IMG/VR virus record: IMGVR_UViG_3300036820_000020
Span: 1-59,104 of that record
DNA: 59,104 bases
Reading direction: 5' to 3' (one strand)
Source of the DNA: a virus
Position 1 is the first letter of the stretch. Each line of letters starts with the position of its first letter. The notes below the pieces were generated by a model. It saw only the letters and a program-made list of their open reading frames with translations, did not search any database and had not been told where the DNA came from. This document shows positions 6,687 through 57,275 of this stretch, in pieces. Made by a program: the position numbers and the translations under genes.

Positions 6687-7531
6687 GTAACGTCGTTGTA
6701 GTCTCTACATACCGCAGGCCGTTCTCGGCCAAACTCTGTCTCGAAGCGTTAGCTAGGTGTCAGCGTTGGTCTGAAGACTGGGTAGCATGGGGAAGCGCGT
6801 GGGCGGATAAGATCGTCATCGGCATATCAGCCGGTAGAAACGCGGACCCTGATGTTGAAAAACAGGCGGTCAAGGTAGTAGAGAGAAATCCGGATATACC
6901 GTTTGAAATCGTTAAAGAGACCTGCGACTCGCATCCGAACAACGTGTCCAAATGGCTGTTGGACTATGGATTTAAAGGTGACAGCGTGGAAGCTGTCCTG
7001 TACGTGGAGGACGACGCGATCCTGGCCACGGACGCTTTCCACCTATGTGAATGGACGAAACAATTCAGTCAAGATAATCGGGATCGGAACGTGATTGGCT
7101 GCTGCTGCTACCACGAAACCATCCCAGCTCACTACGCCGCTGAAGGAAGATCTCCGGACGATCGTCTCATCCGCATAGGCAATGGTTTGAATACCTGCGG
7201 CGGCACGATGTTTCTTCGCGCACCTTACTTCAAAATCCTGGCTCCCAATTGGAATTGCAAACAGGTAGAACCGAAAGGATTTGACTATTCGGCTCATTAC
7301 CTGATGTATCTGAACAATCTTTTTATGATGTGGCCAGACTTGTCCAGATCTTTCAATATTGGCTTTGAACGCGGCGCGCTCTCTTATCCTATCTGGCTCA
7401 AGTACTTCGGACAGTCGATATGGACAACGACCAGACAGTCGGCCAGGTCTTGGAAAGAATTCAAGTTTGACGGCAGCCAGCCGAAGATTTTCAAAGAGCC
7501 ATGGATGGAGAAAGAACTGGGGAATATATGA
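6683..7531 (+). CDS. GT-A fold glycosyltransferase
   Basis: 282 aa. It starts with a Rossmann-like strand (NVVVVSTYRRP) and has a central VLYVEDDAIL segment, a DXD-type metal/nucleotide-sugar site similar in context to GT13 (GnT-I-like) enzymes. A Cys-rich loop GCCCYHET and GGTMFLRAPYF follow. It overlaps both flanking methyltransferase genes by ATGA, so the three proteins are made together. Position 6697-6709 in its fifth to ninth codons is one of the ten TGTAG-N3-CTACA palindromes. Substrate unknown. Confidence 0.72.
   Translation: MSNVVVVSTYRRPFSAKLCLEALARCQRWSEDWVAWGSAWADKIVIGISAGRNADPDVEKQAVKVVERNPDIPFEIVKETCDSHPNNVSKWLLDYGFKGDSVEAVLYVEDDAILATDAFHLCEWTKQFSQDNRDRNVIGCCCYHETIPAHYAAEGRSPDDRLIRIGNGLNTCGGTMFLRAPYFKILAPNWNCKQVEPKGFDYSAHYLMYLNNLFMMWPDLSRSFNIGFERGALSYPIWLKYFGQSIWTTTRQSARSWKEFKFDGSQPKIFKEPWMEKELGNI
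6697..6709. promoter_or_regulatory. Dispersed palindrome TGTAG-TCT-CTACA (site 1)
   Basis: A perfect 5+5 inverted repeat around a 3-base spacer, located 15 bases into the glycosyltransferase gene and encoding V-V-S-T. It is a candidate operator for the KorB/ParB-like protein at 54622; position just downstream of a start codon is compatible with roadblock repression. Confidence 0.6.
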
Positions 7532-8181
7532 TTACCTGGCGCGATTGTCCCGGCTGGTTTGGCTGGCAGGATCTCTATGACGAAGTGGCTCTCACCACTC
7601 CACCCGGCTCCTCAGTAGTCGAAGTCGGCGTAGCGTTCGGACGCTCTCTTCTCTATCTAGCAAAAAAAATCAAAGACACCGGCAAAGACATAAAAGTCTA
7701 TGCGGTCGATCCGTGGGAGCCATATAAAGAGATGGACTTCTGCTACCCGGAGATCTACGGCGTACAGCCCAAAAATGAACAGGAATGGGCGGCCTATAAC
7801 TGCCGGACGCGGCACGGCGGTGTCTTCCCGGCGTTCCTCCATCACTTATATGAAAGCGGCTTGTCAGATATTGTAAGAGTCGTCAGAGCAAACAGTATAG
7901 CGGCGTCTATGCTGTTCGAATACAGGTTGAGCGGCAAGATTTCTCATCCGCCGTATTTCGTATTTATTGACGGCGATCACACCCAGAGATCGGTCGAAAA
8001 CGATTTAGATGTCTGGTGGGATACCGGTCCGGAATGGATGGCCGGACACGATTTTGATCCGCCCAGTGAAACGAATTTTCCCGGCGTCTGGAAGGCCGTT
8101 CATCAGAAATGGGGAGAACAGCAGATCGAAACGGACGGCCAGGGATGCTGGATTGCCAGACGGGCGAGAATTGACAAATAA
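7528..8181 (+). CDS. SAM-dependent methyltransferase, second copy
   Basis: 217 aa from the ATG that overlaps the preceding TGA at 7529-7531. Motif I SVVEVGVAFGRSLLYLA, strand 2 KVYAVDPW, and FVFIDGDHTQRSVENDL followed by WMAGHDF match the Methyltransf_24/CmcI group. It is clearly paralogous to the gene at 6066 but divergent, so the pair probably acts on different positions or substrates. The last gene of the cassette, it is separated from the ERCC4 nuclease by a 26-base tandem GATAAGC spacer. Confidence 0.8.
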   Translation: MITWRDCPGWFGWQDLYDEVALTTPPGSSVVEVGVAFGRSLLYLAKKIKDTGKDIKVYAVDPWEPYKEMDFCYPEIYGVQPKNEQEWAAYNCRTRHGGVFPAFLHHLYESGLSDIVRVVRANSIAASMLFEYRLSGKISHPPYFVFIDGDHTQRSVENDLDVWWDTGPEWMAGHDFDPPSETNFPGVWKAVHQKWGEQQIETDGQGCWIARRARIDK

Positions 8182-8207
8182 ACGATAAGCGATAAGCGAT
8201 AAGCGAT
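8182..8207 (+). repeat. Tandem AGCGATA repeats between two genes
   Basis: The 26-base spacer is built from about three and a half copies of a 7-bp unit ending directly at the next ATG, with no clear Shine-Dalgarno sequence. Confidence 0.75.
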
Positions 8208-9026: not shown

Positions 9027-9198
9027 AGCTGAATTGATAGACATTGAGCGCCAGATATTGAAACGATACAGAGATATAAAAGACGAAGACGACGAAGACG
9101 ACGAAGACAACAAAGACAACGAATACGACTATGTGTTTTTATCTGACATGCTGCGTCTGGTAGAGATTATCCGAGATCACAGTATTGCCCTTGCCTGA
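8971..9198 (+). CDS. Small acidic protein with Asp/Glu repeat
   Basis: 75 aa. A strong ribosome-binding site GAGAGGAG lies 6-10 bases before the ATG inside the end of the ERCC4 gene. The central segment is an Asp/Glu/Lys run from GACGAAGAC repeats, between a beta-like N-terminus and an amphipathic helix at the C-terminus. It overlaps the TTG start of the polymerase gene. No family recognised. Confidence 0.65.
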   Translation: MQTQTVKIKTAKTATVIYEAELIDIERQILKRYRDIKDEDDEDDEDNKDNEYDYVFLSDMLRLVEIIRDHSIALA

Positions 9199-12076
9199 TA
9201 TCTATACCTACTTCCGCGATCCCTGTCCGAGTTGTCCAAGGAAATCGAGAGCTATTGGAGGAGACGGTCCGCAACCAGCTCGTATCTTAGCGATTATGGA
9301 GCGTCCCGGCCAGGACGAATCCAGGCACGGCAGAGTCGCCTGCGGCAAGGCCGGCCAGGAACTAGATGACTTGTATCTTCCCCTGGCTGGTCTGGACCGG
9401 TCCGAGATCCGGGTTTGCAACACTGTCCTGTGCGGCGAGCCGAATAATAAGAAACCGACTGGCAAGGAAATAGCCGGATGCGCCCCGTTCCATATCCCGC
9501 GGGAAATTGAACGGACGAATCCGGAAGTCATATTGCTTCTGGGAGCGTCCGCCTGCTCTCTTGTAACGAACGGCAAAGGGATCGATTTAGAAGCGGCGCA
9601 CGGGATACCCCAACCTACTAGCAAAGTTGGGGATCTGTTTGGCTGGCAAGGCGTGGTTGTACCTATGTTTCACCCCGCTCAAGGGTTGCATGAAGGCCGG
9701 TGGATGCAGACGGCCATGGAAGATTGGCGGAGACTAGGTGAGTTCTTTCAATTTGGAGACGACGGCGATCCGGAGATAGAACCGTATGACTATTCACTTG
9801 CTGAAGCCGTGGATATTGCGGGTGACATTGGAGCGTCAAGCAGAATCAGTATCGACACTGAAAGTCACGACGGTAAGCCTTGGTCTATACAATACAATCA
9901 AGCGTCTGGAATGGGCCGTATCGTTCTCGTTAAAGAAGCCGAAGCGCTATACCACTTACAGCGATTGGTGCGAGAAGCGGAGGAAGTGATCTTTCATAAC
10001 GCCTCGTACGACCTCGAAGTCCTACGAAAACTCGATATCCACGTTCGTTGTTACCGTGACACGATGCAAGAGGCTTTTCACTTAGGAAACCTGCCGCAAG
10101 GTCTCAAGCCGCTGGTCTACAGGCTCTTTCGTCACACCATGACTTCGTACAAAGAGACAGTCTGGCCGGCGTCTATCCTAAATCTACAGGAATGGATGTT
10201 CGAAGCGGTCCAGATAGCCGAATCCGACCTGTCGTTTAAAGAGCAGAAGAAGAAAAGCGTCAAGGTTCATAAAGGAGAATTGGAATCTCTTCTGACCAGG
10301 CTGTTGAGACTGGCGCGGCCACATTCGGATTACGATCCGTGGGATAGACTGGACGCTTTCTGGAAAGACCCTTTGAACTCCTGGATGGTATCGCATATGG
10401 AGAACCGGATAGGTAAATACCCTGTCTTAGGTATCGCCAATTGCAAGATGAAAGACGCGATCCGGTATGCTGTCGGAGATGCCGACTGGACAGGCAGAGC
10501 GGCTGTGGAACTGGCACGGCGGCGGCAGACTGCATTTCAGATTTACGATACAGACCGGGACAACCAGGACAACCGGGACAACCGGGACGGCCAAGACGTC
10601 CAGGACACGTTAAATCAATTGAAGCTGTTCGGAGGCGTCACACTTCCAGGCAAGCCCGACCTGGATAACATCCGGCGTCTGGACGCGATGATCATTCCAC
10701 AGTTAAATAGAATGTCTCGGATAGGAATAGGAATAGACGTTCCTTACCTCCAGGATCTCTCCAGCCAATTCGAAAAGGAAATGAAAGACCTGGAGTCTCA
10801 GATCTCTTCTTATATCCCCGCCTGGGCGCTCAATCAATTCTCTTCTCAGGCCGCCGTGATCGAGGAAGAGGAAGGACTAGCTGCTCTGAACGCTTCGAGC
10901 GCGGTACAGATCCGGACATTACTCTTCGATCTGTTGAAAGTCGGGCGCGACCAGAAGCTCAAATCAACTTCCACAGGCAAAGTGTCTACCGGACGAAAGA
11001 ATTTAGACAAGGTGAGAGACGATCACCCGGTCGTCCCACTGATTCTACAGTATCGGGAAAGACAGAAGCTGAAGGAATCGTTTTGTGACTCTTTGCCTGT
11101 ACTGGCAAAGCTTCACCCTGTCTCTAGTTGTTGTCCGATATGCGAACTTCCTCATCGTGTAGCGACTACACGGCTGCACACGGAATTCACGACCACCAGG
11201 GCTATCACTGGCAGGCTGTCCAGCCGCCGTCCCAACCTCCAGCAAATTCCTATCCGGTCCACTCTGGGCTCTCGTATCCGTGCCGCTTTCGTCGCGTCGC
11301 CGGGTACGAAACTGGTATCTGTAGACTTCTCTCAGATGGAAATCAGGGATCTCGCCCATCTTGCCAACGCCTGTTCTATCTTCAAAGTCTACGAGTCCGG
11401 CGGCGATATTCATGTCAACACAGCCGTCAAAGCGTTTGGCCTTAGAGACGCTTCGCAAGTCGATAAATACCGTCACCGCCTGCCCGCCAAACGAACGAAC
11501 TTCAGCATTCAGAACGGCACGACAGAGGAAGGCTTGTACGCTCAGTTGATCGGAGACTACTGGGCGGCTGGCATCACTCCCCCCGATTGGCTTAACAAGG
11601 ACTGGTGCAAGGAATTCATCGCTTCCTGGCACCAGGCCTATCCGGAAGTCCAACCCTACTTTGACACTCAGTATTACCGGGCTCGCCGGTACGGTTTCGT
11701 ATGGGGACCTTGGGGACGGGCAAGATATATACCGCAGATCCGCTCGACGCACTTCTGGAAAGTGGAAGAGGGACTGAGAGAAGCTCAGAACTTCGCTGTC
11801 ACTAATTCTAACGCGGAACAAACGAAACTGGCGATGGCGGAATGCGAGAGCGAGTTTGAGATTGTGAGAGAGAACGGCGTCTATTGCGAGGCGCTATTGT
11901 CTATTCATGACCAGGTGATAACGGAAGTAGACGAAGCATATGCTGATTTCATAGGTTCTCGAATGACTTACATCTTTGAGCATGTGATGGACGACCGGGT
12001 AACTAAGAAACGGATGTGGCGATGTCTGATCAAGGCGGACTGCGATATCCTGGACCGCTGGCACGCCAAGGAATAA
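9185..12076 (+). CDS. Uracil-DNA glycosylase (family 4-like) fused to DNA polymerase I
   Basis: 963 aa, TTG start. Residues 1-185 are a family 4 UDG domain: Fe-S ligands C14, C17, C83, C99, an ERPGQDES loop and MFHPAQG. Residues 215-440 are a DEDDy proofreading exonuclease (D224, E226, D276, Y428/D432). Residues 490-963 are an A-family polymerase with TGRLSSRRPNLQQIP, motif A VDFSQMEIR (D714), O-helix K769/F773 and motif C HDQ (D909). The canonical O-helix Tyr is Asn777 and the HDE Glu is Gln. No 5'-3' flap domain is present. A DNRDN repeat linker near 458-472 joins exo and pol. It is the likely replicative polymerase, and the UDG part may screen for uracil. Confidence 0.88.
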   Translation: MPLPDIYTYFRDPCPSCPRKSRAIGGDGPQPARILAIMERPGQDESRHGRVACGKAGQELDDLYLPLAGLDRSEIRVCNTVLCGEPNNKKPTGKEIAGCAPFHIPREIERTNPEVILLLGASACSLVTNGKGIDLEAAHGIPQPTSKVGDLFGWQGVVVPMFHPAQGLHEGRWMQTAMEDWRRLGEFFQFGDDGDPEIEPYDYSLAEAVDIAGDIGASSRISIDTESHDGKPWSIQYNQASGMGRIVLVKEAEALYHLQRLVREAEEVIFHNASYDLEVLRKLDIHVRCYRDTMQEAFHLGNLPQGLKPLVYRLFRHTMTSYKETVWPASILNLQEWMFEAVQIAESDLSFKEQKKKSVKVHKGELESLLTRLLRLARPHSDYDPWDRLDAFWKDPLNSWMVSHMENRIGKYPVLGIANCKMKDAIRYAVGDADWTGRAAVELARRRQTAFQIYDTDRDNQDNRDNRDGQDVQDTLNQLKLFGGVTLPGKPDLDNIRRLDAMIIPQLNRMSRIGIGIDVPYLQDLSSQFEKEMKDLESQISSYIPAWALNQFSSQAAVIEEEEGLAALNASSAVQIRTLLFDLLKVGRDQKLKSTSTGKVSTGRKNLDKVRDDHPVVPLILQYRERQKLKESFCDSLPVLAKLHPVSSCCPICELPHRVATTRLHTEFTTTRAITGRLSSRRPNLQQIPIRSTLGSRIRAAFVASPGTKLVSVDFSQMEIRDLAHLANACSIFKVYESGGDIHVNTAVKAFGLRDASQVDKYRHRLPAKRTNFSIQNGTTEEGLYAQLIGDYWAAGITPPDWLNKDWCKEFIASWHQAYPEVQPYFDTQYYRARRYGFVWGPWGRARYIPQIRSTHFWKVEEGLREAQNFAVTNSNAEQTKLAMAECESEFEIVRENGVYCEALLSIHDQVITEVDEAYADFIGSRMTYIFEHVMDDRVTKKRMWRCLIKADCDILDRWHAKE
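11158..11170. promoter_or_regulatory. Dispersed palindrome TGTAG-CGA-CTACA (site 2)
   Basis: Within the polymerase gene, encoding V-A-T-T next to a Cys-rich insertion (CCPIC, residues 649-653). Flanked by G and C, so the inverted repeat extends to 6+6 (GTGTAG...CTACAC). Confidence 0.6.
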
Positions 12077-21173: not shown

Positions 21174-24100
21174 TTAACTGGATGGTACGGAAGTCCAGGA
21201 GATCACAAGTCCGATATTCCGCTGCCAGGAGGTATCGGCACCGTTTCCACTCGATACAATCGGTACGATCCATTGGCCGCGAGGGACCTGTGGACCGAGA
21301 GTATACGGAGATCCTACCGGCGAAGTCTGAAGGTTCTTGTAGTACGGCTGGACATTCACCGTCCCTTCAAAGTCCAGCATGACATCACCGTACTGTTTTA
21401 ACATCCGCGAGTCTTCCTGGTCGTCGGCGGGCGTAGCCACCAGACAAACGATTCCGCTCACGTCATCGCCGGTGTTGTTAGAGACGTAGTAGAGACCGCC
21501 GTTGTCGCAGCCGAGAAGAGTCAATGGATTCTCGACTCCCTCCTCTTGATATCGAATAGTCACTTGGGGGTTGTAGTAATAAGGCACCCAGGCTTTCGTC
21601 TTCATGTCATAACAGAAAGTGTGATAGGTGCTGGTCGTATCGACGTAATCGAAAAACAACTGATTGTTGACGAATTCCAGTTTCAGATACGCGGATAAAT
21701 TGAAATCGGGAGGATAAAACATCGAGGCCGTCACCGGTTCCAGATAGGAAATGTCCAACGGCTGCCCCGGCTCGCCTTCGTGAGGAAAGAGAGAGTAGAG
21801 ATCGTCGGTTAGGCGTTCAGATTGTCCGGCTGGATTGTAAGCGTAGATACCGCCGTCGGTTGAAACTAAGAAGATGTATGGCGCTTTGACTGTGAATGCC
21901 CAGGACCCGGCCAGGCCATAGGTCAAAGAGAGCTTATAAGAGGCGAACGGATTTGTTCCTCCCTTCGCCGGCTCGATACGATAGACGCCGAGAGTAGTAA
22001 AGGCGTAATCGGCTCCTTCATAATGACCACCGCCTAGCAACGGTTCTGATGGGTTTGTGACCTCGATATACCCGGCGTCAGAAGCCGAGTCAGGATTGCC
22101 TGGTTGGGTGAAATAGAGAAAGCCTGGGTTATAAGGATCGCCACAAGCCATAATGACATCATTGCCTTTGGACTCCCAGGCGAAAGCAAGCGGTTGTCCC
22201 GCGATAGTGGCTTCCGGAATTGAGAAATCGACGCCGCTATAGACGCCGATATTTTGAGCTGTATCGAGTACGGTTGTTGAGCCGGGCGGAGCGTAAAGGC
22301 TGTACGTCTGCTCGTTGATAATGATCTCCACTCCGCGTATCCAGGACTGATTGAAAGTATCTCCGGACACCCAGGTGACTCTGGTTCCTACTACGTCGCA
22401 AGTTCCTAGCCTCGGTTTATCAGTGACCGGGAAAGGGACATACTGCTGCAAGTCTAACGCCTGAGAGCCCTGGGCGAAACCAGTTGTCACGGAGTCAGCG
22501 TATACCGACGTGGCGTTAGCGACGGTCAGGATTTGTTTCCATTTCGGGATTGGGCCGCCGAATCTCTCGATATCGATCAGGTCCACTTGCGAATCCGGAC
22601 TCGCTGTAATCGATACCTGTAACTGCTGTCGGCGCGGCAGTTCTCCATTCCTGGTCTCTGGCGATACATCCGATCTCGCCCCCGTGGCCGAACTGCGGTA
22701 GCGGTACCTGTATTGAATCGGTATGCCTTCGTTGCCGTATGAGTTAAAATTAGCGTCCGGACCGAACCCGCCGCCCACCCACCAGCTTCCCCATTCGACA
22801 TTGGCGTCACCGGTAATAATGAATTGAATACCGATAGCTTTCACTTGAGACAGGTTGACGCTCGCGTCAGTACCGACGCGGACCAGATCTGAGAATTTGA
22901 ATGTCGCTTCGAACCATGTGCCGACACCAGATGGTAACTGTGAACTTCCCTGGGGAGTTCCACCGGTTGGATTGGCGATAGGGGCGACCGGGTAAGGAGA
23001 TTGTCCGACTGTCTGTTGTTCCGCCTGCGCCTCGAACGAATCGGCGATATCGGCGGTAATGCCTTGTAAAAGCGTCGGGATCGTAGACCCGGCGCCGGTT
23101 ACAATAGGCGTAAAGTCACCTTGCCTGGATATGTAGTAATAATAATTCTGAGTGAAGTCGTTCTCGCTCGCGTCCACGTCCAGGAGGAAATGGACTTCCA
23201 CGATATTGCCGGGCGTATCCGTCCAGAAAGATATATGCATGTAATCTTCAGAGATCAGAGATACGCCGGTTGTACCGGAGGCCGTCAGAGTCAAATCTGT
23301 TGACAGGCTGCCGAGAGAGACGAGACCGACACCGGACGAATAGGTAAGCGCGGACGTGTTAACTGATCCCGCGACCGCCGCGCCGCCTGTATGATTCGAT
23401 GTGAAATACGCTCTGAACCCAGGCAGGAACGTAATAGTATCGCTCGCGGATATCGTGGACGCGCTCGAACATCTAAAAGAATACGTGCCGTCCGGACCCA
23501 CAGTAACAGAGAGAACTCTGACGTACTGCGTTCCAATGTAAAGCATCTGGTTTCGGATGAGTCCCTGCTGCGGCTGGGTGACGGCGACAGTACAAAGTCC
23601 GGTAGAACCGGAATCATAGACAACCGCGGAGGCGGCCGTGCCGGCGGTTACCTGGTAGACCTGTTCGACCGTGGTCTTTTCGGTGCCTACTTCAATTCTC
23701 ATACCCAGGCCAAGCCAGCCATACCCGACAGACGAGCCTTGCAAGGCTACACAACACCAGCCGGTAGTCCCAGTGTCATAAACGGTCGCCAGCGTCGTGA
23801 TTCCCGAGGGAACACGGTCAGCCGTTGATGGCGCCCCGGCATCGCCAGCCGAAGACCATGACCCTGACGCATTTGAGTCCTGGAGGATCGTATAGCCAGG
23901 TTCGCTGAGAGCTGTTGTAGGCGCTACACCAGGTACCGCGATTCCGATATTGGCGTGAGTGATAGACGCGCCTGATACATCCGCTTTGTATTTCTGAGTT
24001 TTGTTGGAATCAAAGAGGTACAGCCAAGGCTCTGGAGACTGCGGAGGACGGTAGGGAACCATTGAAAGAGGGTTGCCGGAATAATTGGAATCGATCTGGT

Positions 24101-24407
24101 TGAAAGAAGTCTGGCCGGCGTACAGATAGCCTTGGGAGCCGAGGAACCGGCAGTAGGAATTGACGGCTCCTGGTACGTTGTCGTTCAAGCGGATAATCGA
24201 ATGAAATGGCTGGCCCGCGTTTATGTTTGACTGGATCAGATCCATTCCCGGACGGACTTGCAGGGTCGCGTCCTGAATGTTCGGAGAGACGTTGAGAAGG
24301 AAAGGCGCGCGGTTCGGCGGCTGTAGATCGGGTGGATGATGAAAGTCCACGCCGTGATAGGCGAACTTGCCTTTCTTCGGAGATCGTTGGAATTCAGCGT
24401 TTGCCAC
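21174..24407 (-). CDS. Large tail protein, candidate tail nozzle (gp12/gp10-like)
   Basis: 1077 aa from a GTG whose G overlaps the preceding TAG. It opens with FAYHGVDFHHPPDLQPPNRAPF and has internal beta segments typical of large podovirus tail proteins, for example VTWVSGDTFNQSWIRG and a stretch with FLVSTDGGIYAYNPAGQSE reminiscent of beta-propeller blades. It follows an adaptor-like gene in operon order. The whole protein is beta-rich without coiled coil. Assignment as nozzle or tube is by size, composition and position. Confidence 0.62.
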   Translation of the reverse strand: MANAEFQRSPKKGKFAYHGVDFHHPPDLQPPNRAPFLLNVSPNIQDATLQVRPGMDLIQSNINAGQPFHSIIRLNDNVPGAVNSYCRFLGSQGYLYAGQTSFNQIDSNYSGNPLSMVPYRPPQSPEPWLYLFDSNKTQKYKADVSGASITHANIGIAVPGVAPTTALSEPGYTILQDSNASGSWSSAGDAGAPSTADRVPSGITTLATVYDTGTTGWCCVALQGSSVGYGWLGLGMRIEVGTEKTTVEQVYQVTAGTAASAVVYDSGSTGLCTVAVTQPQQGLIRNQMLYIGTQYVRVLSVTVGPDGTYSFRCSSASTISASDTITFLPGFRAYFTSNHTGGAAVAGSVNTSALTYSSGVGLVSLGSLSTDLTLTASGTTGVSLISEDYMHISFWTDTPGNIVEVHFLLDVDASENDFTQNYYYYISRQGDFTPIVTGAGSTIPTLLQGITADIADSFEAQAEQQTVGQSPYPVAPIANPTGGTPQGSSQLPSGVGTWFEATFKFSDLVRVGTDASVNLSQVKAIGIQFIITGDANVEWGSWWVGGGFGPDANFNSYGNEGIPIQYRYRYRSSATGARSDVSPETRNGELPRRQQLQVSITASPDSQVDLIDIERFGGPIPKWKQILTVANATSVYADSVTTGFAQGSQALDLQQYVPFPVTDKPRLGTCDVVGTRVTWVSGDTFNQSWIRGVEIIINEQTYSLYAPPGSTTVLDTAQNIGVYSGVDFSIPEATIAGQPLAFAWESKGNDVIMACGDPYNPGFLYFTQPGNPDSASDAGYIEVTNPSEPLLGGGHYEGADYAFTTLGVYRIEPAKGGTNPFASYKLSLTYGLAGSWAFTVKAPYIFLVSTDGGIYAYNPAGQSERLTDDLYSLFPHEGEPGQPLDISYLEPVTASMFYPPDFNLSAYLKLEFVNNQLFFDYVDTTSTYHTFCYDMKTKAWVPYYYNPQVTIRYQEEGVENPLTLLGCDNGGLYYVSNNTGDDVSGIVCLVATPADDQEDSRMLKQYGDVMLDFEGTVNVQPYYKNLQTSPVGSPYTLGPQVPRGQWIVPIVSSGNGADTSWQRNIGLVISWTSVPSS
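23916..23928. promoter_or_regulatory. Dispersed palindrome TGTAG-GCG-CTACA (site 3)
   Basis: Inside the large tail gene near its 5' end, encoding V-A-P-T on the minus strand. Confidence 0.6.
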
Positions 24408-29630: not shown

Positions 29631-30395
29631 TTATTGAACCTCCTCAAGATAGCTGACCGTCTGGCTGCCGGTAGACGTGATACCATAGACCGCCGCGCTC
29701 GACCGGATACGCATCGGATAGCCCGCGATACCGACAAGCATCTGACCGGTGGTGGCGGTGACACCGGAGCCGCCGAGAAAAATATTGGTTGTGCCATTGT
29801 TGACAACAACCACGGATATCCGGCTACTGTTGGACGCAATGATTTCCGTGGCTGACGATCCGACGCTTACCTGACCTGTGTTAAAAGTGCTGGCGGTTCC
29901 TTGTACAATTCTCTGGCTGTCGGCAATATTACCAGCGCCAATTGTAACGCTGTTGCCCGCGATCTCAGTGAGATTGACGGGCTGTGTTGTAGTGCCTACA
30001 GGATCGGTACGGACAGGATTGCTGAGAGTGCCGATCTCCGTTCCGCTGTTGTTACGCAGGTTGACATGAACGGCGCGATTCGGAGTGACTCTCTCAGTCC
30101 CTTGCTGGCCGGAGGAGAGAGCGGTAGCGGAGTCGTTATAGACACCGCCGCCGGGGACGAACTGGGAGACACCGGCAGTCCAAGAGGCTTCGTCGGTAAC
30201 GGATAGGCCGCCGCCGCCGCTGCCGGCTTTCACATTGACACAGAGATTGCGCGCGTCATCGAGCGCGACAACGGCCAGGACGCCGCTGGCGGGAGTATCG
30301 GACGGCGCGACCACGCCGGACATGGGTACGCCGGGAGACTGGCCGACGACAAACGGATTCTCGTCTTTTAAAGACGTGCCGCCGGAGATACTCAT
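29631..30395 (-). CDS. Fibre-like virion protein
   Basis: 254 aa, Gly/Ser/Thr/Val-rich. After a PFVVGQSPGVPMSG opening there are alternating beta segments (VNLRNNSGTEIGTLSNPVRTDPVGTTTQPVN) and a C-terminal beta domain (ISVVVVNNGTTNIFLGGSGVT) like the small head/tail decoration fold. It contains palindrome site 4. Confidence 0.6.
   Translation of the reverse strand: MSISGGTSLKDENPFVVGQSPGVPMSGVVAPSDTPASGVLAVVALDDARNLCVNVKAGSGGGGLSVTDEASWTAGVSQFVPGGGVYNDSATALSSGQQGTERVTPNRAVHVNLRNNSGTEIGTLSNPVRTDPVGTTTQPVNLTEIAGNSVTIGAGNIADSQRIVQGTASTFNTGQVSVGSSATEIIASNSSRISVVVVNNGTTNIFLGGSGVTATTGQMLVGIAGYPMRIRSSAAVYGITSTGSQTVSYLEEVQ
29988..30000. promoter_or_regulatory. Dispersed palindrome TGTAG-TGC-CTACA (site 4)
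   Basis: Within the fibre-like gene, encoding V-G-T-T on the minus strand. A one-mismatch relative, TGTAG-TGC-CTACG, lies nearby at 29112-29124. Confidence 0.6.
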
Positions 30396-35115: not shown

Positions 35116-35128
35116 TGTAGCGGCTACA
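35116..35128. promoter_or_regulatory. Dispersed palindrome TGTAG-CGG-CTACA (site 5)
   Basis: Extends to 6+6 (GTGTAG...CTACAC). It overlaps the stop codon of the gene at 35124 and lies about 45 bases upstream of the -35 box at 35065-35070, a natural place to regulate the ncRNA promoter. Confidence 0.65.
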
Positions 35129-35387
35129 CGTTTTCTGACGGTTTGGTTCCACCAGTCACAGTCCACTTCAAATCCATTGCTCTTCCCTTGTGGAAATTGA
35201 CCTGTAGATTGCCTGTATATCCTAGACGGTGAATAGTTTCAAGAGCTTCCGACATGGAAGAGACAGGGAGACGGACTTCGGATACTACCTTGGATGACGG
35301 GACCGCGCCTGTCAGACCAGAGAGAGAGGAACCGTTGAATTTTCCACTGCTACCGGCGTTACCGCCGTTTTCCCCTGGATAGGACAC
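35124..35387 (-). CDS. Small hypothetical protein
   Basis: 87 aa from a GTG that follows AAGGAAGGAAAGGG, a strong ribosome-binding site lying inside the upstream gene. A Ser/Gly-rich N-terminus leads to SMSEALETIHRLGYTGNLQVNFHKGRAMDLKWTV, a helix plus beta hairpin faintly resembling DUF2292-type mini-domains. It overlaps the 55-aa gene upstream by 29 bases in another frame. Confidence 0.6.
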   Translation of the reverse strand: MSYPGENGGNAGSSGKFNGSSLSGLTGAVPSSKVVSEVRLPVSSMSEALETIHRLGYTGNLQVNFHKGRAMDLKWTVTGGTKPSENV

Positions 35388-35526
35388 GCTTTCCCTTTCC
35401 TTCCTTGTGACGCTCGGACAGCATGATCGCGATAGCCTGCCTGCGATTTTTGACTTTCGGGCCACGCTTCGAGCCGCTGTGAAGCCGTCCGGATTTCCAT
35501 TCGTGCATCACTTCTGAAGAAGGCAT
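35359..35526 (-). CDS. Small basic phage protein (DUF6496-like)
   Basis: 55 aa, too short for many gene finders. The sequence MHEWKSGRLHSGSKRGPKVKNRRQAIAIMLSE (from residue 7) is a pattern I associate with a widespread small phage/bacterial family (H.fk.G.L.SGSk.GPkVk.rkQAIAIaLSE). The C-terminus is basic. It precedes the 35124 gene and follows the portal gene; function in the family is unknown. The upstream spacer is a GGGATTAGGATT repeat. Confidence 0.7.
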   Translation of the reverse strand: MPSSEVMHEWKSGRLHSGSKRGPKVKNRRQAIAIMLSERHKEGKGKRVLSRGKRR

Positions 35527-44291: not shown

Positions 44292-45227
44292 TTATTCGTC
44301 CTCGTCATTTCCTTCGGAATCATCTTCGTTATCTTCGTCATCTTCGTTATCTTCGTCTTCATCCACTGTCTCTTCCGCCATGCACTCCGTTCCTCCGGAC
44401 TGCATGATCTTTGAAAGATCCACGATCGCGGTGTCCATGTCGGCCAGATTCCCAACAGGCGCCGCGTCTGTCTTGATACCGGCAACAGAATTAGAAGACG
44501 AGAAGTTAAAGATGGGGACAGTAACGCCGCCGCCGCCGCCGCCACCGCCGACTCTAGACTGTTGCGGAAGCATACCAGAAGCTTTGAAGATCAACTCCCT
44601 GTCTTTGAAGTTATCGGATGACACGCAGGCGAATTCCGCGGTCTTCTCTATTACCCGCGGAGCGGAAAAGGCAAGAGCGAACTGGCGCTTGGGATGAAGC
44701 TCGTTCATGACATGCTTGGCTACCCAGCCGGTCAGGTCGCCGACAGATACCTTAGAGGAGAGACAGAGATCCTCGGGGATATGAAGCCGGCGCTTATCAA
44801 TATCAAGCGAATGCCATGAAGACAGATAGCGGGCTGCGTCGGGATTGCCGAGACGGGCTTCGACAGCTACGTACTTGATATAGTTGCGCCAGGAAGGAGA
44901 GATATAAGAGAAAGCGGAGGCCAGGGGAGAACGGGAGCCGGTGGCTATAGCGGTGTTAGCGGCGTTAGCGGCGTTATCTTCATCCACTTCTAAATCACAG
45001 GTCAAGGGTGACTGGATAGGTCTTGGATTAGCCGTGGACGGCATCACCACGACAGTGTTACTGTCATCGTGGCTATCATGACTATCATAACTATCATCAT
45101 GACTATTGCCGTGCTGGCTCGCGCGTGTTCGCTTCCGCTTTGGCGAGCTGGAAGGCTTGCCGGATAATGTCTTCGGCTTCACTGGCGGTGAAGGGCTCTT
45201 GCCAGACCTGGTTTCCTTCTTCATCAA
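44292..45227 (-). CDS. Candidate terminase small subunit / DNA-packaging partner
   Basis: Up to 311 aa; the start may be 45227 or 45044, since the first 60 residues are repeat-rich (Ser/His/Asp) and overlap the upstream gene by about 125 bases. The central 100-200 region is helical and basic (WRNYIKYVAVEARLGNPDAARYLSSWHS). The tail carries a poly-Gly run and a Glu/Asp (NEDDED) repeat from GAAGATAAC expansions. It ends 4 bases before TerL, the usual place of TerS, but no helix-turn-helix is certain. Confidence 0.5.
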   Translation of the reverse strand: MMKKETRSGKSPSPPVKPKTLSGKPSSSPKRKRTRASQHGNSHDDSYDSHDSHDDSNTVVVMPSTANPRPIQSPLTCDLEVDEDNAANAANTAIATGSRSPLASAFSYISPSWRNYIKYVAVEARLGNPDAARYLSSWHSLDIDKRRLHIPEDLCLSSKVSVGDLTGWVAKHVMNELHPKRQFALAFSAPRVIEKTAEFACVSSDNFKDRELIFKASGMLPQQSRVGGGGGGGGVTVPIFNFSSSNSVAGIKTDAAPVGNLADMDTAIVDLSKIMQSGGTECMAEETVDEDEDNEDDEDNEDDSEGNDEDE

Positions 45228-45618
45228 GCACCATTCTACGCTCAGACGTGAGACGCTGGCGCATCTCGGTTAAAACCTGTTGGAATTGAGGCGACCACGG
45301 AGCGACACCGAGAGAGATCGCGAGCGCGGCTTCGTGGTCTGTACGGGCCTGGTACTCTTCCGGAGACTCGGCGAGATGGAATTCATAAGGCTCGCCGGAT
45401 GTTTTAGACTGTTTAGACTGTTTAGATTGCTCGCGTGTAGTGCCTACACGCTCGCCGGTAGCCAGACTAGCCAGACTGGACTGATTGGCCTGATCGTCAC
45501 CTTGTGAAAGTGGTATCGATGGCGACAGTCTTTCTAAAGCGTCCGCTATCCGTCTCAATTCAAACGTATTGCGGTCGATTGAGGCGACCAGCCCGAGAGG
45601 AAGCTCAAACCAGGACAT
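45103..45618 (-). CDS. Hypothetical protein of the packaging operon
   Basis: 171 aa from the ATG at 45618. The N-terminus FELPLGLVASIDRNTFELRRIADALERL forms a helix after a beta strand. A Gln/Ser/Lys repeat linker follows, and the second half (SPEEYQARTDHEAALAISLGVAPWSPQFQQVLTEMRQRL) is an acidic helical domain. It contains palindrome site 6 and overlaps the downstream gene in another frame. Confidence 0.55.
   Translation of the reverse strand: MSWFELPLGLVASIDRNTFELRRIADALERLSPSIPLSQGDDQANQSSLASLATGERVGTTREQSKQSKQSKTSGEPYEFHLAESPEEYQARTDHEAALAISLGVAPWSPQFQQVLTEMRQRLTSERRMVLDEEGNQVWQEPFTASEAEDIIRQAFQLAKAEANTREPARQ
45436..45448. promoter_or_regulatory. Dispersed palindrome TGTAG-TGC-CTACA (site 6)
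   Basis: Extends to 6+6 (GTGTAG...CTACAC). In a late-operon gene just upstream of terminase, encoding V-G-T-T. Confidence 0.6.
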
Positions 45619-45660
45619 AATCAATCAAACAATTCATCTTTGTCTTTATATGGCTCAGAC

Positions 45661-48475: not shown

Positions 48476-48520
48476 CGTCAAAAGTCTGACGTGACCGACC
48501 GTCAAAAGTCTGACGTGACC
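48476..48520. promoter_or_regulatory. Two 21-bp direct repeats, each with CGTCA-N6-TGACG palindrome
   Basis: Two identical copies 24 bases apart start-to-start, each containing a 5+5 inverted repeat with the same spacer AAAGTC. Repressor or iteron-like sites. They end one base before GTGTAG of palindrome site 7. Confidence 0.7.
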
Positions 48521-48521
48521 G

Positions 48522-48534
48522 TGTAGGCGCTACA
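48522..48534. promoter_or_regulatory. Dispersed palindrome TGTAG-GCG-CTACA (site 7)
   Basis: Non-coding copy, immediately after the CGTCA-N6-TGACG pair and before the AT-rich segment; the only copy in a cluster with other operator-like repeats. Confidence 0.65.
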
Positions 48535-49306: not shown

Positions 49307-49537
49307 ATGGAAAAACGAATTGTAGTCATCGCCGCGGTGAGCCAAGAGCAACTCGAAAACGACGGATGTGATGTCGAGCAGGAATGTGACACCATCGCAC
49401 ACGCCAAGCAGCGCGCCAAGTACTACCTCACCGAGGAGTATATGAACTCAGCGGAATCCACCACCATGCTGGGATACTCCCAGGTAAAGGTGAACGGCGT
49501 AGTTGAGTACGATTTCTTCGGAAAGGGGGTGAAGTGA
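49307..49537 (+). CDS. Small hypothetical protein (leaderless)
   Basis: 76 aa from M-E-K-R-I-V-V-I. A beta strand, an acidic helix (QEQLENDGCDVEQECDTIAHAKQRAKYYLTEEYM) and a C-terminal strand pair (GYSQVKVNGVVEYDFFG) suggest a small alpha/beta fold. The start sits on the predicted transcription start of the upstream promoter, with no room for a ribosome-binding site. It overlaps or abuts the pentapeptide gene. Confidence 0.65.
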   Translation: MEKRIVVIAAVSQEQLENDGCDVEQECDTIAHAKQRAKYYLTEEYMNSAESTTMLGYSQVKVNGVVEYDFFGKGVK

Positions 49538-49539
49538 TC

Positions 49540-50100
49540 ATGAGACTGATTGACACCATTCACCAAGCCGGCAGCGGGACCGGCCTCGACGGAGCCAATC
49601 TCAGTTGGTCTGACCTCCGCAAGGCTCGCTTCAGCGGTGTATGCCTCAGCCAAGCCAATCTTAGCTGGTCCGACCTCCGCGGGACCGATCTCAGCGGGGT
49701 CAATTTACGCGGGGCCAATCTCCGCGGGGCATGCCTCAGCGGGGCCGATCTCCGCGGGGCCGATCTTAGCGGAGCCGACCTCCGCGGGACCGACCTCAGC
49801 GGGGCCAACCTACGCGGAGCCGATCTCAGCGGAGCCGATCTCAGCGGAGCCGACCTCAGCGGGGCCGACCTCAGTTGGTCCGACCTCAGCGGGGCCAACC
49901 TCAGCGGAGCCAACCTCAGCGGAGCCAACCTCAGCGGGGCCGATCTCAGCGCGGCGGACCTCCGCGGGGCCAATCTCAGTTGGTCCAATCTTAGCTGGTC
50001 TGACCTTCGCGGAGCCAATCTCCGCGGATCCAATCTCCACGGCGCATGCCTTAACGGTACCTGTCTCAACGGACTGTTAAACAAAGAGGTACTACTGTGA
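49540..50100 (+). CDS. Pentapeptide-repeat protein
   Basis: 186 aa from ATG (GTG at 49534 is an alternative); GGGGGTG lies at good spacing. More than 25 consecutive pentapeptides of the A(D/N)LSx/A(D/N)LRG type run from about residue 15 to 165, forming a right-handed quadrilateral beta-helix. Tryptophan variants (LSWSDLRG) recur at intervals. Family members such as Qnr/MfpA mimic DNA and bind gyrase, but many have no known target. As an accessory phage gene it could counter host topoisomerase or nucleic-acid-dependent defence; this is inference. Confidence 0.85.
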   Translation: MRLIDTIHQAGSGTGLDGANLSWSDLRKARFSGVCLSQANLSWSDLRGTDLSGVNLRGANLRGACLSGADLRGADLSGADLRGTDLSGANLRGADLSGADLSGADLSGADLSWSDLSGANLSGANLSGANLSGADLSAADLRGANLSWSNLSWSDLRGANLRGSNLHGACLNGTCLNGLLNKEVLL

Positions 50101-51423: not shown

Positions 51424-51463
51424 AGACCCTACACGCCGCTTCCAATCGCGCCGTGTAGGGTCT
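51424..51463 (-). terminator. Intrinsic terminator, minus strand (overlaps palindrome site 8)
   Basis: 12-bp perfect stem AGACCCTACACG / CGTGTAGGGTCT with a 16-base loop and, on the minus strand, TTTTT directly after it. Terminates the DUF932 gene transcript. Confidence 0.85.
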
Positions 51464-51466
51464 ACA
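51454..51466. promoter_or_regulatory. Dispersed palindrome TGTAG-GGT-CTACA (site 8)
   Basis: Occupies the upstream edge of the minus-strand terminator stem. Protein bound here would affect hairpin formation only as a DNA roadblock, an unusual placement. Confidence 0.6.
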
Positions 51467-54060: not shown

Positions 54061-54096
54061 TGTTCGCTATATGGGGCGTCACGCTATATATAAAAT
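54061..54096 (+). promoter_or_regulatory. Upstream element (right copy)
   Basis: TGTTCG-CTATAT-GGGGCGTCACG-CTATATATAAAAT, matching the left copy except for small indels. Points toward the XRE/ParB operon, 165 bases before its first start. Confidence 0.6.
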
Positions 54097-54110
54097 ATCC
54101 GATTTATCCG

Positions 54111-54123
54111 TGTAGGCGCTACA
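54111..54123. promoter_or_regulatory. Dispersed palindrome TGTAG-GCG-CTACA (site 9)
   Basis: About 100 bases upstream of the XRE/ParB operon promoter; the copy best placed for autoregulation by the ParB-like protein. Confidence 0.65.
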
Positions 54124-54126
54124 TGC

Positions 54127-54195
54127 CAACGGAAGTCAGAAGTCGGAAGTCAGAAGTCGGAAGTCAGAAGTCGGAAGTCGGAAGTCGGAAGTCAG
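54127..54195 (+). repeat. GAAGTC(G/A)GAAGTC tandem array
   Basis: About eight copies of GGAAGTC/AGAAGTC, related to the arrays at 51293-51352. Confidence 0.8.
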
Positions 54196-54224
54196 AAAAC
54201 GCCAAATCAGAAAATTATTGATTA

Positions 54225-54253
54225 TTGACTTCACCGGCATCTATTGTTACGCT
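54225..54253 (+). promoter_or_regulatory. Promoter TTGACT-N17-TACGCT of the regulator operon
   Basis: The -10 ends 9 bases before the 54263 ATG, leaving practically no leader. Confidence 0.55.
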
Positions 54254-54262
54254 GGTGTGCTA

Positions 54263-54619
54263 ATGCCGGAAAATCTACCACCGGGACCACCGCCGGAAAT
54301 CCCGCCAGCGTCAAAAATCCCCCGGTCGCCGCTTTTTCCCAATCGCGGCGCCGGCACATCTGGAAAGAAACCGGTCCTATACCCCGATATCAGTTTTCAG
54401 TTGCTAGGCCAGGCGGTCGGCATAGATCCGACCTACGCTGGCAGGATTATGAACGGCAAAGTCCGCCCGTCGATGCAAGTAGCGGAACGGTTGGCCGCGG
54501 TGATGGGATGGACGGTAGACCAGGTGGCCGCGTTATACCACAGCCAAAAAACCGAGGCACTCAAAAGAGTCAAAAGAGTCAAAAGCGTCAAAAGAGTCAA
54601 AAGCATCCGAATGAGTTAA
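54263..54619 (+). CDS. XRE-family helix-turn-helix regulator
   Basis: 118 aa from the ATG at 54263. The Pro-rich first 40 residues precede a Cro/C1-type HTH: ISFQLLGQAVGIDPTYAGRIMNGKVRPSMQVAERLAAVMGWTVDQV (about 44-90). The C-terminal tail is a Lys/Arg/Val/Ser repeat (KRVKRVKSVKRVKS) from tandem GTCAAAAGA copies, ending 2 bases before the ParB-like gene. A candidate repressor of this control region; it could bind the divergent GGGGCGTCACG elements. Confidence 0.75.
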   Translation: MPENLPPGPPPEIPPASKIPRSPLFPNRGAGTSGKKPVLYPDISFQLLGQAVGIDPTYAGRIMNGKVRPSMQVAERLAAVMGWTVDQVAALYHSQKTEALKRVKRVKSVKRVKSIRMS

Positions 54620-54621
54620 AA

Positions 54622-55887
54622 ATGGCAAGAGTAGAAACCAACGTCGAAACCGGGAGCGAAAGTGAAAGCGATCTGCTTCTACTTCACTCTCCGCTTACAG
54701 ACCGGATCGTTTTCGTTCGTCCAGCCCGTCTGAAGATTGAAAAACTCAACCACGCCAGGCCAGGACCAACTCCACCGCAAGAGCAATCCAGACTCTCTTC
54801 ACTAGCCCAGTCTATGAGGGAGAATGGCCAGTTGACTCCTGTACTAGTCACTGAGTATAGCGGCAGCGGCGGTAACGGCTCCTGGGACTACGCTTTGATC
54901 GACGGTAGGCGCCGGCGTGACGCCGCGCTCCTGATCGAACGCGAAGACAGCATGGAATTCCCATTAGCCTGTGTGGTCGCGTCCGGTCTAGACGACCCTT
55001 TGAAAGCTGGCATCCACGCCAACAAACACGCCCCTCTGACCCCTTTGCAATTCGCCTATCTGTGTAAGCAAGTCAGAAAAGTACACGGATGGCATGGCAC
55101 AAAGGAAGTCGCGGAGTACCTTGGGGTGTCTAGAGCGCAGGTTAGTCAACACGACAAGTTGCTTACCAGACCGGAAGGCATGACCAAGTCCGCCTATGAA
55201 GACCTGTTGTCCAAGGTGGGAAGTAGGCGATGGGGTAGCGAAGCGGCTTTCTATACTCTTACGCACGTAGAACCAGTAAAAGCCGATCAGGTGATAGCCA
55301 GAGCGGAGGAATTGGCCACTGAAGAAACCGGGGAAACCGAGGAATTTTCTGAAGTGCCCGAAGAATCGTCAGAATCGCCCCAGGAAGCATCGGAATACGA
55401 AGAGAGCCAGTCGGATACCTCTACCCCTCAACAAATCGATCCTGGAGAGTCTGAGACGCGGCAAACAGGCAAAGAGAAACGGGTGAGGAGTGACGGGAAG
55501 CGTGACAAAGACATCAAAACACCGGAATGGATGAAAGAACAGAAGCAGAAATCGAAAGAGAGAGTAGCGGCCAAAAAAGCGGCTAAAACGACAGCTAAAG
55601 AGACAGCCAGACCGTCCGCGTCTGTTGGACGCAGGCATGTTGAAAAAGCGGCCAGGGAAGCCGCGGCTCTCAAATCGACGGCGCCGCAATCGCAATCCAG
55701 AGGCGTTCCGGATCTCCTTCGCCTTTTGGAATTACTAAGTGGAGATGGATATCCGAAACTGATGAGGGAGTTTGCGGATGCGCTGCGGACTTCCTGGTGG
55801 ACAGGCCAAGTCGATGATGAACATATCGTGTGGCGGTGGGAGGCTATCGCTTCCGATGTCAGGTTCAGGTACGAGCGGGAAGGTTAG
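54622..55887 (+). CDS. ParB/KorB-like DNA-binding protein
   Basis: 421 aa. Residues 30-120 are a ParB N-terminal domain: PPQEQSRLSSLAQSMRENGQLTPVLV and the phosphate-binding ALIDGRRRRDAALL (GRRRR at 95-99, the GERR-like motif). Residues 159-180 are the HTH (TKEVAEYLGVSRAQVSQHDKL). The 225-340 region is acidic then Lys-rich and disordered; a folded C-terminal domain follows 345. No ParA homologue accompanies it. KorB of RK2 binds TTTAGC-S-GCTAAA; the analogous TGTAG-N3-CTACA site occurs ten times here. I propose it as the cognate binder, for partition, transcription control or nucleoid-like organisation. Confidence 0.8.
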   Translation: MARVETNVETGSESESDLLLLHSPLTDRIVFVRPARLKIEKLNHARPGPTPPQEQSRLSSLAQSMRENGQLTPVLVTEYSGSGGNGSWDYALIDGRRRRDAALLIEREDSMEFPLACVVASGLDDPLKAGIHANKHAPLTPLQFAYLCKQVRKVHGWHGTKEVAEYLGVSRAQVSQHDKLLTRPEGMTKSAYEDLLSKVGSRRWGSEAAFYTLTHVEPVKADQVIARAEELATEETGETEEFSEVPEESSESPQEASEYEESQSDTSTPQQIDPGESETRQTGKEKRVRSDGKRDKDIKTPEWMKEQKQKSKERVAAKKAAKTTAKETARPSASVGRRHVEKAAREAAALKSTAPQSQSRGVPDLLRLLELLSGDGYPKLMREFADALRTSWWTGQVDDEHIVWRWEAIASDVRFRYEREG

Positions 55888-55946
55888 GAAGAATAAGTGT
55901 TTTTTATGTGACTGGCGCGCCGTATAAGAATTTATCTGTACGTTGT

Positions 55947-57275
55947 ATGGCTCAAAGTGATACATTTTACAACGTGCCTATCGCCGCGGCGCCACTAACT
56001 GATTCTGATTCTTCGTCTTATTCTAAATTGAGACCGTTCCTGGTATCTTCCACACGGTCTCCTCTGGCGGACCCTAAAACACCGATCCATAGACTAGCCT
56101 GCGCCATCCAGTCCTACTTATACTTTCCAGATCCAAGTCCGTTATATGCGGTATGTGGGACTGTAATAGCAAATAGTCTCCGTGGTTATCCGGTATGGCT
56201 CATGCTGATCGGACCGCCGGAATCGGGTAAGACGGAACTATTAAAACCGTTATTGGGAATAGACGGCTGCGTCGAGTGCGGGGATATCTCGGGCAAAGGC
56301 GCGTTGCTATCGGGAACGCCGGCCTCCCAACGAACCCAGGATTCTACAGGTGGACTGCTCAACACGATAGACAAGCAGAGAGGCGTCCTGGTCATGCTGG
56401 ACTTTGCCAGGACAGTCCTGGCCTCGGATATGAGGGAGATGAGATCGACCCTCGGAGCGATCGGAATGCTCCATGACCAGCATTACAAAAGATCAATTGG
56501 AGCCGACGGCGGACGGTCTATCACTTTCGATGGCAAGTTAGGCTGGATAGCGGCTTCGACAGACGCTATAGACCACCCGGATAACCACCAGGCTAATTCA
56601 GAAATGGGAGACAGGTGTCTCTATTATCGCTATCCTGTCTCGACCGGGTATCACGAGATATCGAGCGCCTTGGATAATCCCGACAGCAGTTATAAGACTC
56701 AAAAGATCCAAGGGCTATTCAAGACCTGGCAAGAAGAGATCGGGTTGGATTGGGAGCATCTGGCGCCCCCGCGGACGCTTGAAGAAGATGAGAAACGGCG
56801 GGTATCGGCGCTCGCGCAGTTTTGCGCGAGAGCCAGGTCAGCCGTTTACCGGGATCGCTGGAGACAGGAGGTAGCGGGGATATCAAGGGCCGCGCTGGGG
56901 CCGAGAATAGCTAACTCGCTGGCTCAATTGCTTCGCGGCATGGAACACATCGGATGTACGCAAGAGGAAATCTGGAAGGTGTTGTGTCACACCGCTATAG
57001 ATTCTATACCCGCTGTCAGAGCGCACATTCTAAAACTGTTACAGGAAGACAGACAGACATTGCAGGAAGTCGCCGACAAGATACAGATAGCATTGCCCGC
57101 GGCCAAAAGAACGATAGAGGATTTGCGTATCCACGACCTTGTAGCGCCTACACGGCCTAACGGTCAGTCTGATGGTCAGTCTGATGGTCAGACGGGCGGT
57201 CAGACCTGGACACTCAGTGAGAAAGGGAAAGGCCTGTTGGATTTTGGATGGCAGGGATCTAAAATAGAGACTTGA
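55947..57275 (+). CDS. P-loop ATPase with winged-helix C-terminus (replication initiator/helicase candidate)
   Basis: 442 aa from ATG at 55947. Walker A LIGPPESGKT at 88-96 and VLVMLDFAR (D152) as Walker B. Sensor-like DGKLGWIAASTDAID follows, as in helicase-type AAA+ proteins. Residues 360-420 (HILKLLQEDRQTLQEVADKIQIALPAAKRTIEDLRIHDLV) form a winged-helix domain. A Gln/Asp/Gly repeat (GQSDGQSDGQTGGQ) lies in the tail. Directly after the ParB-like gene, so a replication initiator or helicase is the best guess. Contains palindrome site 10. Confidence 0.7.
   Translation: MAQSDTFYNVPIAAAPLTDSDSSSYSKLRPFLVSSTRSPLADPKTPIHRLACAIQSYLYFPDPSPLYAVCGTVIANSLRGYPVWLMLIGPPESGKTELLKPLLGIDGCVECGDISGKGALLSGTPASQRTQDSTGGLLNTIDKQRGVLVMLDFARTVLASDMREMRSTLGAIGMLHDQHYKRSIGADGGRSITFDGKLGWIAASTDAIDHPDNHQANSEMGDRCLYYRYPVSTGYHEISSALDNPDSSYKTQKIQGLFKTWQEEIGLDWEHLAPPRTLEEDEKRRVSALAQFCARARSAVYRDRWRQEVAGISRAALGPRIANSLAQLLRGMEHIGCTQEEIWKVLCHTAIDSIPAVRAHILKLLQEDRQTLQEVADKIQIALPAAKRTIEDLRIHDLVAPTRPNGQSDGQSDGQTGGQTWTLSEKGKGLLDFGWQGSKIET
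57140..57152. promoter_or_regulatory. Dispersed palindrome TGTAG-CGC-CTACA (site 10)
   Basis: In the winged-helix domain of the ATPase gene, encoding V-A-P-T, about 130 bases upstream of the promoter of the small-repeat gene array. Confidence 0.65.

Follow-up and report, generated by a model that had tools for sequence, protein, structure and literature searches.

Ten dispersed palindromes in a 59,104-nucleotide phage record are candidate loading sites of a ParA-less, KorB-like protein

The IMG/VR virus record IMGVR_UViG_3300036820_000020, from a soil phage, was analyzed over its whole length of 59,104 nucleotides (hereafter, the window). The end of the window repeats its start as a 127-bp direct terminal repeat, so the record is apparently a complete circular assembly. 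It contains ten exact, dispersed copies of the palindrome TGTAG-N3-CTACA and an operon of three genes that encode a small helix-turn-helix (HTH) protein, a ParB/KorB-like protein and a third conserved protein (Table 1). An earlier inspection of the letters alone (the sequence-only reading) had listed the ten copies with their positions and spacers, placed the start of the ParB-like gene at 54622 and noted that three of the last four copies are non-coding. All of this proved correct, the copy at 57140 being the one that lies inside the next gene. By our gene calls, six sites are in genes and four are between genes, and the dyad base is C or G in all ten, a regularity that the sequence-only reading had not mentioned.

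Table 1. Palindromic sites and operon features of the window
Feature	Coordinates	Strand	Remarks
Site 1, TGTAG-TCT-CTACA	6697..6709		in glycosyltransferase-like gene 6683-7531 (name from our reading)
Site 2, TGTAG-CGA-CTACA	11158..11170		in polA (polC in the comparisons below), the DNA polymerase gene; 3 bases downstream of the place of the site in seven relatives
Site 3, TGTAG-GCG-CTACA	23916..23928		in large structural gene 21174-24407
Site 4, TGTAG-TGC-CTACA	29988..30000		in gene 29631-30395
Site 5, TGTAG-CGG-CTACA	35116..35128		between portal gene and gene 32974-34005; overlaps end of small open reading frame 35124-35465
Site 6, TGTAG-TGC-CTACA	45436..45448		in gene 45103-45624, upstream of terminase gene
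Site 7, TGTAG-GCG-CTACA	48522..48534		intergenic, straight after tandem 24-bp repeat
Site 8, TGTAG-GGT-CTACA	51454..51466		intergenic, by end of DUF932 gene; overlaps longer inverted repeat
Site 9, TGTAG-GCG-CTACA	54111..54123		begins 152 bases upstream of the first start codon of the HTH-ParB operon
TTGAC, candidate -35 element of HTH-ParB operon	54225..54229	+	5 of 7 phages examined have TTGAC between -37 and -42, relative to the HTH start
Small XRE-type HTH protein	54263..54619	+	first operon gene; HTH_31, E 1.4e-6
ParB/KorB-like protein, 421 aa	54622..55887	+	GRRRRD phosphate motif, N134, HTH helices 160-167 and 171-181
R171 codon	55132..55134	+	recognition helix SRAQ; residue varying with operator; aligned with Caulobacter ParB R173
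Third conserved operon gene	55878..57275	+	P-loop-like GPPESGKT (our reading)
Site 10, TGTAG-CGC-CTACA	57140..57152		inside third operon gene

The sequence-only reading expected about 0.06 copies in 59 kb, and shuffling bears out the excess. An order-2 Markov model predicts 0.023 copies in the window, and 100 dinucleotide shuffles averaged 0.01 and never exceeded one copy; ten are observed. When all five-letter arms were scanned with spacers of 0–13, TGTAG with a spacer of 3 gave the ten copies and any other arm gave three or fewer. A codon-preserving shuffle, proposed by the sequence-only reading as a check, was run 1000 times with synonymous codons; it produced a mean of 0.024 in-gene sites (maximum 1) against the six found. 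Chance and codon bias were rejected on these dinucleotide and synonymous-codon shuffles.

Relatives were found by a capsid scan (14 loci), a capsid alignment (34, including those 14) and an alignment of the third operon gene (10). We read 32 related phage records in full, 19 of which are at least 45 kb long; with the window, these form a full-size set of 20. Six shorter relatives of 4.6 to 15.5 kb (G005, G011, L116, L122, L125 and L130) were left out of the full reading. There are 122 exact TGTAG or CGTAG sites in all records, 68 of them within genes and 112 with C or G at the dyad, and the maximum in one relative genome is 21. The site of some relatives is a fuller, 6+1+6 palindrome, TGTAGASTCTACA, which accounts for 20 of the 21 copies in G012 and 19 of 20 in G029. 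The window's spelling is looser in the center, TGTAG-NSN-CTACA (S, C or G), and a scan of the window for TAGASTCTA gave no match. G013 has no TGTAG copies and ten of CGTAG-N3-CTACG, nine of these being CGTAGASTCTACG; G028 has two CGTAG sites. A later, looser scan recovered 11 copies of TGTA-N5-TACA in G001 (0.52 expected) and 12 of TAGASTCTA in G017 (0.47 expected). The G017 copies always carry G at −9 and usually G at −8. Among phage records, two Tunturiibacter phages (27.7% identity) are the sole relatives by capsid; Tunturi_1 has neither TGTAG nor CGTAG sites, and its annotation contains no ParB. The host of the window phage may be a member of the Acidobacteriota. Nothing useful came from a single-sequence ParB scan of viral contigs, a ParB tblastn search of phage records, a megablast search of phage records with the window's last 9 kb or a capsid scan that looked for a host or prophage among bacterial genomes.

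If the ParB-like protein reads the palindrome, the two should occur together, as the sequence-only reading had proposed to check. Co-occurrence was counted with records under 45 kb omitted. A profile search places the ParB-like gene in 12 of the 20 full-size records (the window included), and all 12 also have the third operon gene. At least five exact TGTAG or CGTAG sites occur in eight of the 12 and in none of the eight ParB-negative records (Fisher P = 0.0047). With TGTAG alone the count is 7 of 12; with the G001 and G017 variants it rises to 10 of 12 against 0 of 8 (P = 0.0007). The opposite pattern, a palindrome kept by relatives that lack the gene, was seen in none of the eight full-size ParB-negative relatives. 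These eight include G033, which has no homolog of the third operon gene and encodes a ParB_N protein whose ParB profile match covers only positions 55–98 of 398 and which our own ParB model missed; without G033 the count is 8 of 12 against 0 of 7 (P = 0.013). Sites without a ParB gene occur in G002, G003, G006, G008, G010, G030 and, in the CGTAG form, G004; all measure 18 to 43 kb and probably represent incomplete genomes with a full length near 60 kb. Phages with and without sites are intermixed on a tree built from terminase, portal and capsid (G013 beside G027, G019 beside G032), and three of four independent pairs agree with the association while none opposes it. In the G004 fragment (L073, L074), which belongs to a close relative, CGTAG-type sites number two, one in the tape-like gene and one in a gene upstream of terminase; the fragment carries no ParB gene and is perhaps from a further CGTAG lineage.

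The sites recur at homologous codons across phages in polC, a tape-like gene (VEST), the counterpart of window gene 32974 (VDST) and a helicase gene (CRVY), and also at several shared gene junctions. The polC sites of seven relatives are in register; ParB-negative G024 and G025 have no polC site. In the polC genes of G007, G009, G012 and G029, 182 of 410 aligned residues are the same, and 21 of the 176 degenerate codons among them are identical. The sole run of three or more identical codons is the site, CAT GTA GAG TCT ACA, and the longest word common to the four genes, CATGTAGAGTCTACA, is again the site. The polC gene of G014 keeps the palindrome with different residues, and in the tape-like gene of G009 the VEST residues are retained but the codons used break the site. 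To judge from these two cases and the polC codon run, selection appears to act on the DNA word itself at these positions. The shared peptides (VEST, VDST and CRVY) are what would favor an origin of the sites in chance, codon usage or conserved protein motifs; with 0.024 in-gene sites in synonymous shuffles against six, and with the G009 and G014 cases, we regard that origin as practically out of the question.

Comparison of the ParB-like proteins shows that operator spelling varies together with the recognition helix. The helix reads SRA[QT] in all nine TGTAG-type records (including the fragment G015 and the relaxed G001), SVAW in G013, STAT in G028, ELTT in G017 and DPST in G016. Twenty-three ParB columns are invariant in the nine TGTAG-type phages, and exactly one of these differs in both G013 and G028: the helix arginine, R171 in the window. 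Guanine 1 of parS, which we take from the parS sequence to lie 6.5 bp from the dyad, would correspond roughly to the place of the base that changes here, at 6 bp. In our alignment R171 is opposite Caulobacter R173 (S172 and R173 in the published protein, S170 and R171 in the window); portions of the same paper state that R173 bonds guanine 1 of parS and that R or Q at this position is part of the switch between parS and the Noc-binding site, NBS (PMC7383237). The pairing of site and protein is well supported by these sequence comparisons, and the ParB-like protein of the window very probably binds the palindromes. We predict TGTAGGCGCTACA, TGTAGAGTCTACA and CGTAGAGTCTACG as the own-site words of the ParB-like proteins of the window, G012 and G013, respectively.

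The small HTH protein could instead be the binder, with the ParB-like protein as its partner. XRE proteins commonly bind short palindromes, and of the 10 full-size records that have sites or site variants, 9 carry a close homolog next to the ParB gene. Its recognition helix, however, is very different under the same operator (PTYAGRIMNG vs KSHLAKVLTG), and none of its five invariant columns changes with the CGTAG class. Furthermore, the homolog in G017, which has 12 sites, is distant (E 3e-5) and its helix has diverged; its gene lies about 5.4 kb away from the ParB gene, counted across the record ends. In G024 a homolog (E 3.7e-16) is present and exact sites are absent. We judge this assignment quite improbable. 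The protein is XRE-like by sequence, and its structural model has no Protein Data Bank (PDB) match at E 0.001 or better; the only PADLOC result was a weak capH match to it. The third operon gene, which has no family match, was rejected as the binder, as the sister phage G027 keeps the gene and has no sites.

The window's ParB-like protein belongs to the ParB/Noc/KorB superfamily, with a ParB_N domain, an HTH domain and the phosphate motif. Its PF02195 match is below the cut-off (22.4 bits, E 4.9e-6), which is exceeded in 9 of 21 records searched; it matches phrog_1033 at E 2.3e-18 and a PDB profile at E 1.3e-21. Of the motif residues G95, R97 and R98, the first and last are invariant in all 12 aligned ParBs, as is N134, and R97 is nearly so. 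In the alignment to KorB, R98 corresponds to R117 (or its neighbor) and N134 to N146, residues that sections of PMC11790492 describe as important for the binding and hydrolysis of cytidine triphosphate (CTP). An AlphaFold model of the protein has a mean predicted local distance difference test score (pLDDT) of 79 and a predicted template modeling score of 0.59, with residues 1–26 below pLDDT 50. Among solved structures aligned to this model, KorB from the KorB-KorA complex (8qa9_B) scored highest (Z 14.3, root-mean-square deviation 3.1, 195 of 209 residues aligned), ahead of Noc (Z 12.2) and Caulobacter ParB (Z 12.0); ParB, Noc and KorB entries overall range from 9.8 to 14.3. By this measure, the fold of the model is closest to that of KorB.

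We propose that the palindromes are loading sites of the phage's own ParB/KorB-like protein. A dimer would read each site, with one HTH contacting each arm. A CTP-dependent clamp would close at the site, as in KorB and ParB, and slide over the flanking DNA; clamps loaded at 5 to about 22 sites could cover much of a genome that measures about 60 kb. A clamp of this kind without ParA might silence phage genes globally, in the prophage or at an early stage. It would feed back on its own operon through the upstream site, and the small HTH protein may be its KorA-like partner. According to parts of PMC11790492, CTP-dependent sliding allows KorB to act over distances of up to more than 1 kb from its operators, and KorA stalls it. 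The sequence-only reading had suggested a genome-wide operator, stoperator or centromere system linked to the KorB/ParB-like protein, and co-occurrence, the codon shuffles and the variation of spelling with the helix support it. To the more specific statement, that these are dispersed loading sites of a ParA-less KorB-like clamp that acts as a global silencer, we assign a probability of roughly 0.6; we lean only slightly toward the silencer role as such.

The surroundings of the operon bear on that role. In 4 of 11 phages (G000, G007, G015 and G029; −152, −68 and −119 in the first three), an exact site lies no more than 330 bases before the HTH gene, which suggests regulation. Among the seven phages examined upstream of the operon, relaxed sites occur in G001 and G014 and none in G009 and G028. 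The candidate −35 element was not called by a consensus promoter scan upstream of the operon, which returned one site, on the − strand only. A tyrosine integrase is encoded in 14 of the 20 records (the window is not among them), and many of these phages look temperate.

Alternatively, the clamp might bridge, compact, segregate or mark the genome in the manner of Noc or a dispersed centromere, either without ParA or with one supplied by the host. Sites are distributed alike in early, late and intergenic DNA and occupy conserved in-gene places; all 8 genomes tested space their sites more evenly than the average random placement (P 0.016 to 0.12, below 0.05 in four, values that are not independent across genomes because sites share positions); and ParB and Noc are the best PDB sequence matches. 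On the other side, the ParA family PF13614 is absent from the window and its 19 relatives (0 of 20) and present in 14 of 14 control genomes, in line with the earlier claim that ParA is missing; the integrases imply that plasmid partition is not generally needed; and the sites upstream of the operon suggest regulation. Partition with a phage ParA of family PF13614 was rejected on the same search. We consider a genome-organizing role doubtful, well behind silencing by the clamp.

Stoperators offer another explanation: as in mycobacteriophage L5, a bound repressor would halt transcription elongation at the sites. Like L5, these phages have many 13-bp sites across the genome, some at gene junctions, and one phage-encoded protein. 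Of the 40 ASW-centered sites that lie inside genes in 11 records, 27 have G at the dyad when read along the coding strand, and outside genes there is no bias (18 G, 21 C by the nearest gene); the bias is a possible polarity. However, the L5 genome, as described in parts of PMC9283540, carries more than 20 asymmetric 13-mer sites for one phage-encoded repressor of another kind, and L5-type sites are thought to be monomer-bound and are oriented with transcription. The sites here are perfect 5+5 palindromes and more than half lie within genes. A stoperator mechanism of the L5 type is therefore unlikely.

Several observations weigh against loading by a KorB-like clamp and should be set beside its support. 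ParB-positive G016 has no recognizable site, and G028 has just two. Recognition of the CGTAG class and of the two variants (G001, G017) was post hoc. ParB-negative G024 retains two TAGASTCTA and G025 one (their capsid, portal and terminase rows in the tree do not differ), and the independent pairs are too few for significance (median P 0.25). The polC site is present in 8 of 11 ParB-positive records with polC and missing in G001, G019 and G028, and in 7 of 11 phages the stretch immediately before the operon contains no exact site. The window protein has lost the E and R of ENxxR and has a one-residue deletion, and because of these changes its CTP cycle may differ. Sequence profiles are nearer ParB/Noc (E 1e-21 to 2e-18) than KorB (4e-10), and Foldseek alone puts Noc first. 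In seven other shared proteins, 0 to 10 columns likewise separate both classes, as ancestry would give. Finally, Caulobacter R173 contacts a G, and the base that changes here is the outer T/C beside a G; the match of R173 to that base by dyad distance is an argument, not a measurement.

The closest known counterpart is KorB of plasmid RK2. RK2 is about 60 kb in size, and its OB operator is a 13-bp palindrome with C or G at the dyad. As in that system, the phage sites are 13-bp palindromes with S at the dyad (10 of 10), about a dozen are dispersed over a replicon of about 60 kb, a small DNA-binding protein is encoded nearby and the protein combines a ParB-family N-domain with an HTH domain. KorB has 12 sites according to the title of a work cited in PMC11790492. 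Unlike RK2, ours is a phage, its operator arms differ, a search for IncC/ParA (PF13614) found none and over half of the 122 sites are inside genes, several at conserved positions; unlike KorA, which binds an operator of its own and locks the clamp, the candidate partner is an XRE-type HTH protein for which no operator of its own was identified. The phage system would work most like KorB, yet we do not class it as KorB, since the PF13614 search gave no ParA partner and the KorA-like partner is a candidate only.

Other ParB-family systems share single traits. Noc is a ParA-less ParB paralog with many dispersed palindromic sites, and it acts on the host chromosome and membrane; its fold is similar to that of the phage protein, and its targets set it apart. 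The ParABS systems (chromosomal, P1 and N15 SopAB) belong to the same protein superfamily, and phage N15, which has ParA, carries several dispersed centromeres; here there is no ParA family match, sites number 5 to about 22 and no single centromere cluster was seen. SPbeta resembles our phages in having an element, SPBRE, repeated across the prophage and read by a phage regulator, the master repressor MrpR, but portions of PMC10516654 describe MrpR as a tyrosine-recombinase fold and place SPBRE in promoter or intergenic regions.

The sequence-only reading knew of no such system in phages. This stands: no paper was found, by title or the start of its abstract, on dispersed ParB-family operators in a ParA-less phage, in a search outside which most subscription papers fell. 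The wider idea of dispersed sites is not wholly new, given the N15 centromeres. A 2025 survey reports that orphan ParB-fold proteins are widespread, phages included, and the sections available of it give no DNA sites for them (PMC12704722). Here the sites, several spellings and the probable reading residue were obtained from sequence alone, which yields a directly testable protein–DNA pair. The results suggest a KorB-like regulon design in phages, with operators inside genes such as that for DNA polymerase kept by selection on synonymous bases. A broader picture is more tentative: a phage genome covered by its own ParA-less ParB-type clamps, loaded at as many as about 22 conserved positions, half of which fall inside genes, might be switched, marked or organized as one unit, and lineages might shift operator and helix together, possibly changing immunity group.

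Some further features of these genomes were recorded. G030 (L182, L183) has a second dispersed palindrome, TAAC-N2-GTTA, in ten copies (0.09 expected). In the window, the tandem 24-bp unit abutting site 7 is CGTCAAAAGTCTGACGTGACCGAC (48476-48521), and the inverted repeat overlapped by site 8 (51424-51463) has arms at 51424-51435 and 51452-51463, AGACCCTACACG...CGTGTAGGGTCT. Rfam and tRNA scans gave no matches. The open reading frame at 9185-12076 combines uracil-DNA-glycosylase, exonuclease and DNA polymerase A domains, and its counterpart is split over two reading frames in six relatives. Tandem repeats make up 6.0% of the window, compared with 0.1 to 1.9% in the 12 relatives scanned, and several are inside genes. 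Long arrays of GGTCGN hexamers occupy 57341-57520 and 57868-59006, and a long in-frame 15-bp repeat at 49534-50100 encodes a protein that we read as pentapeptide-repeat-like (DLSGANLRGA...).

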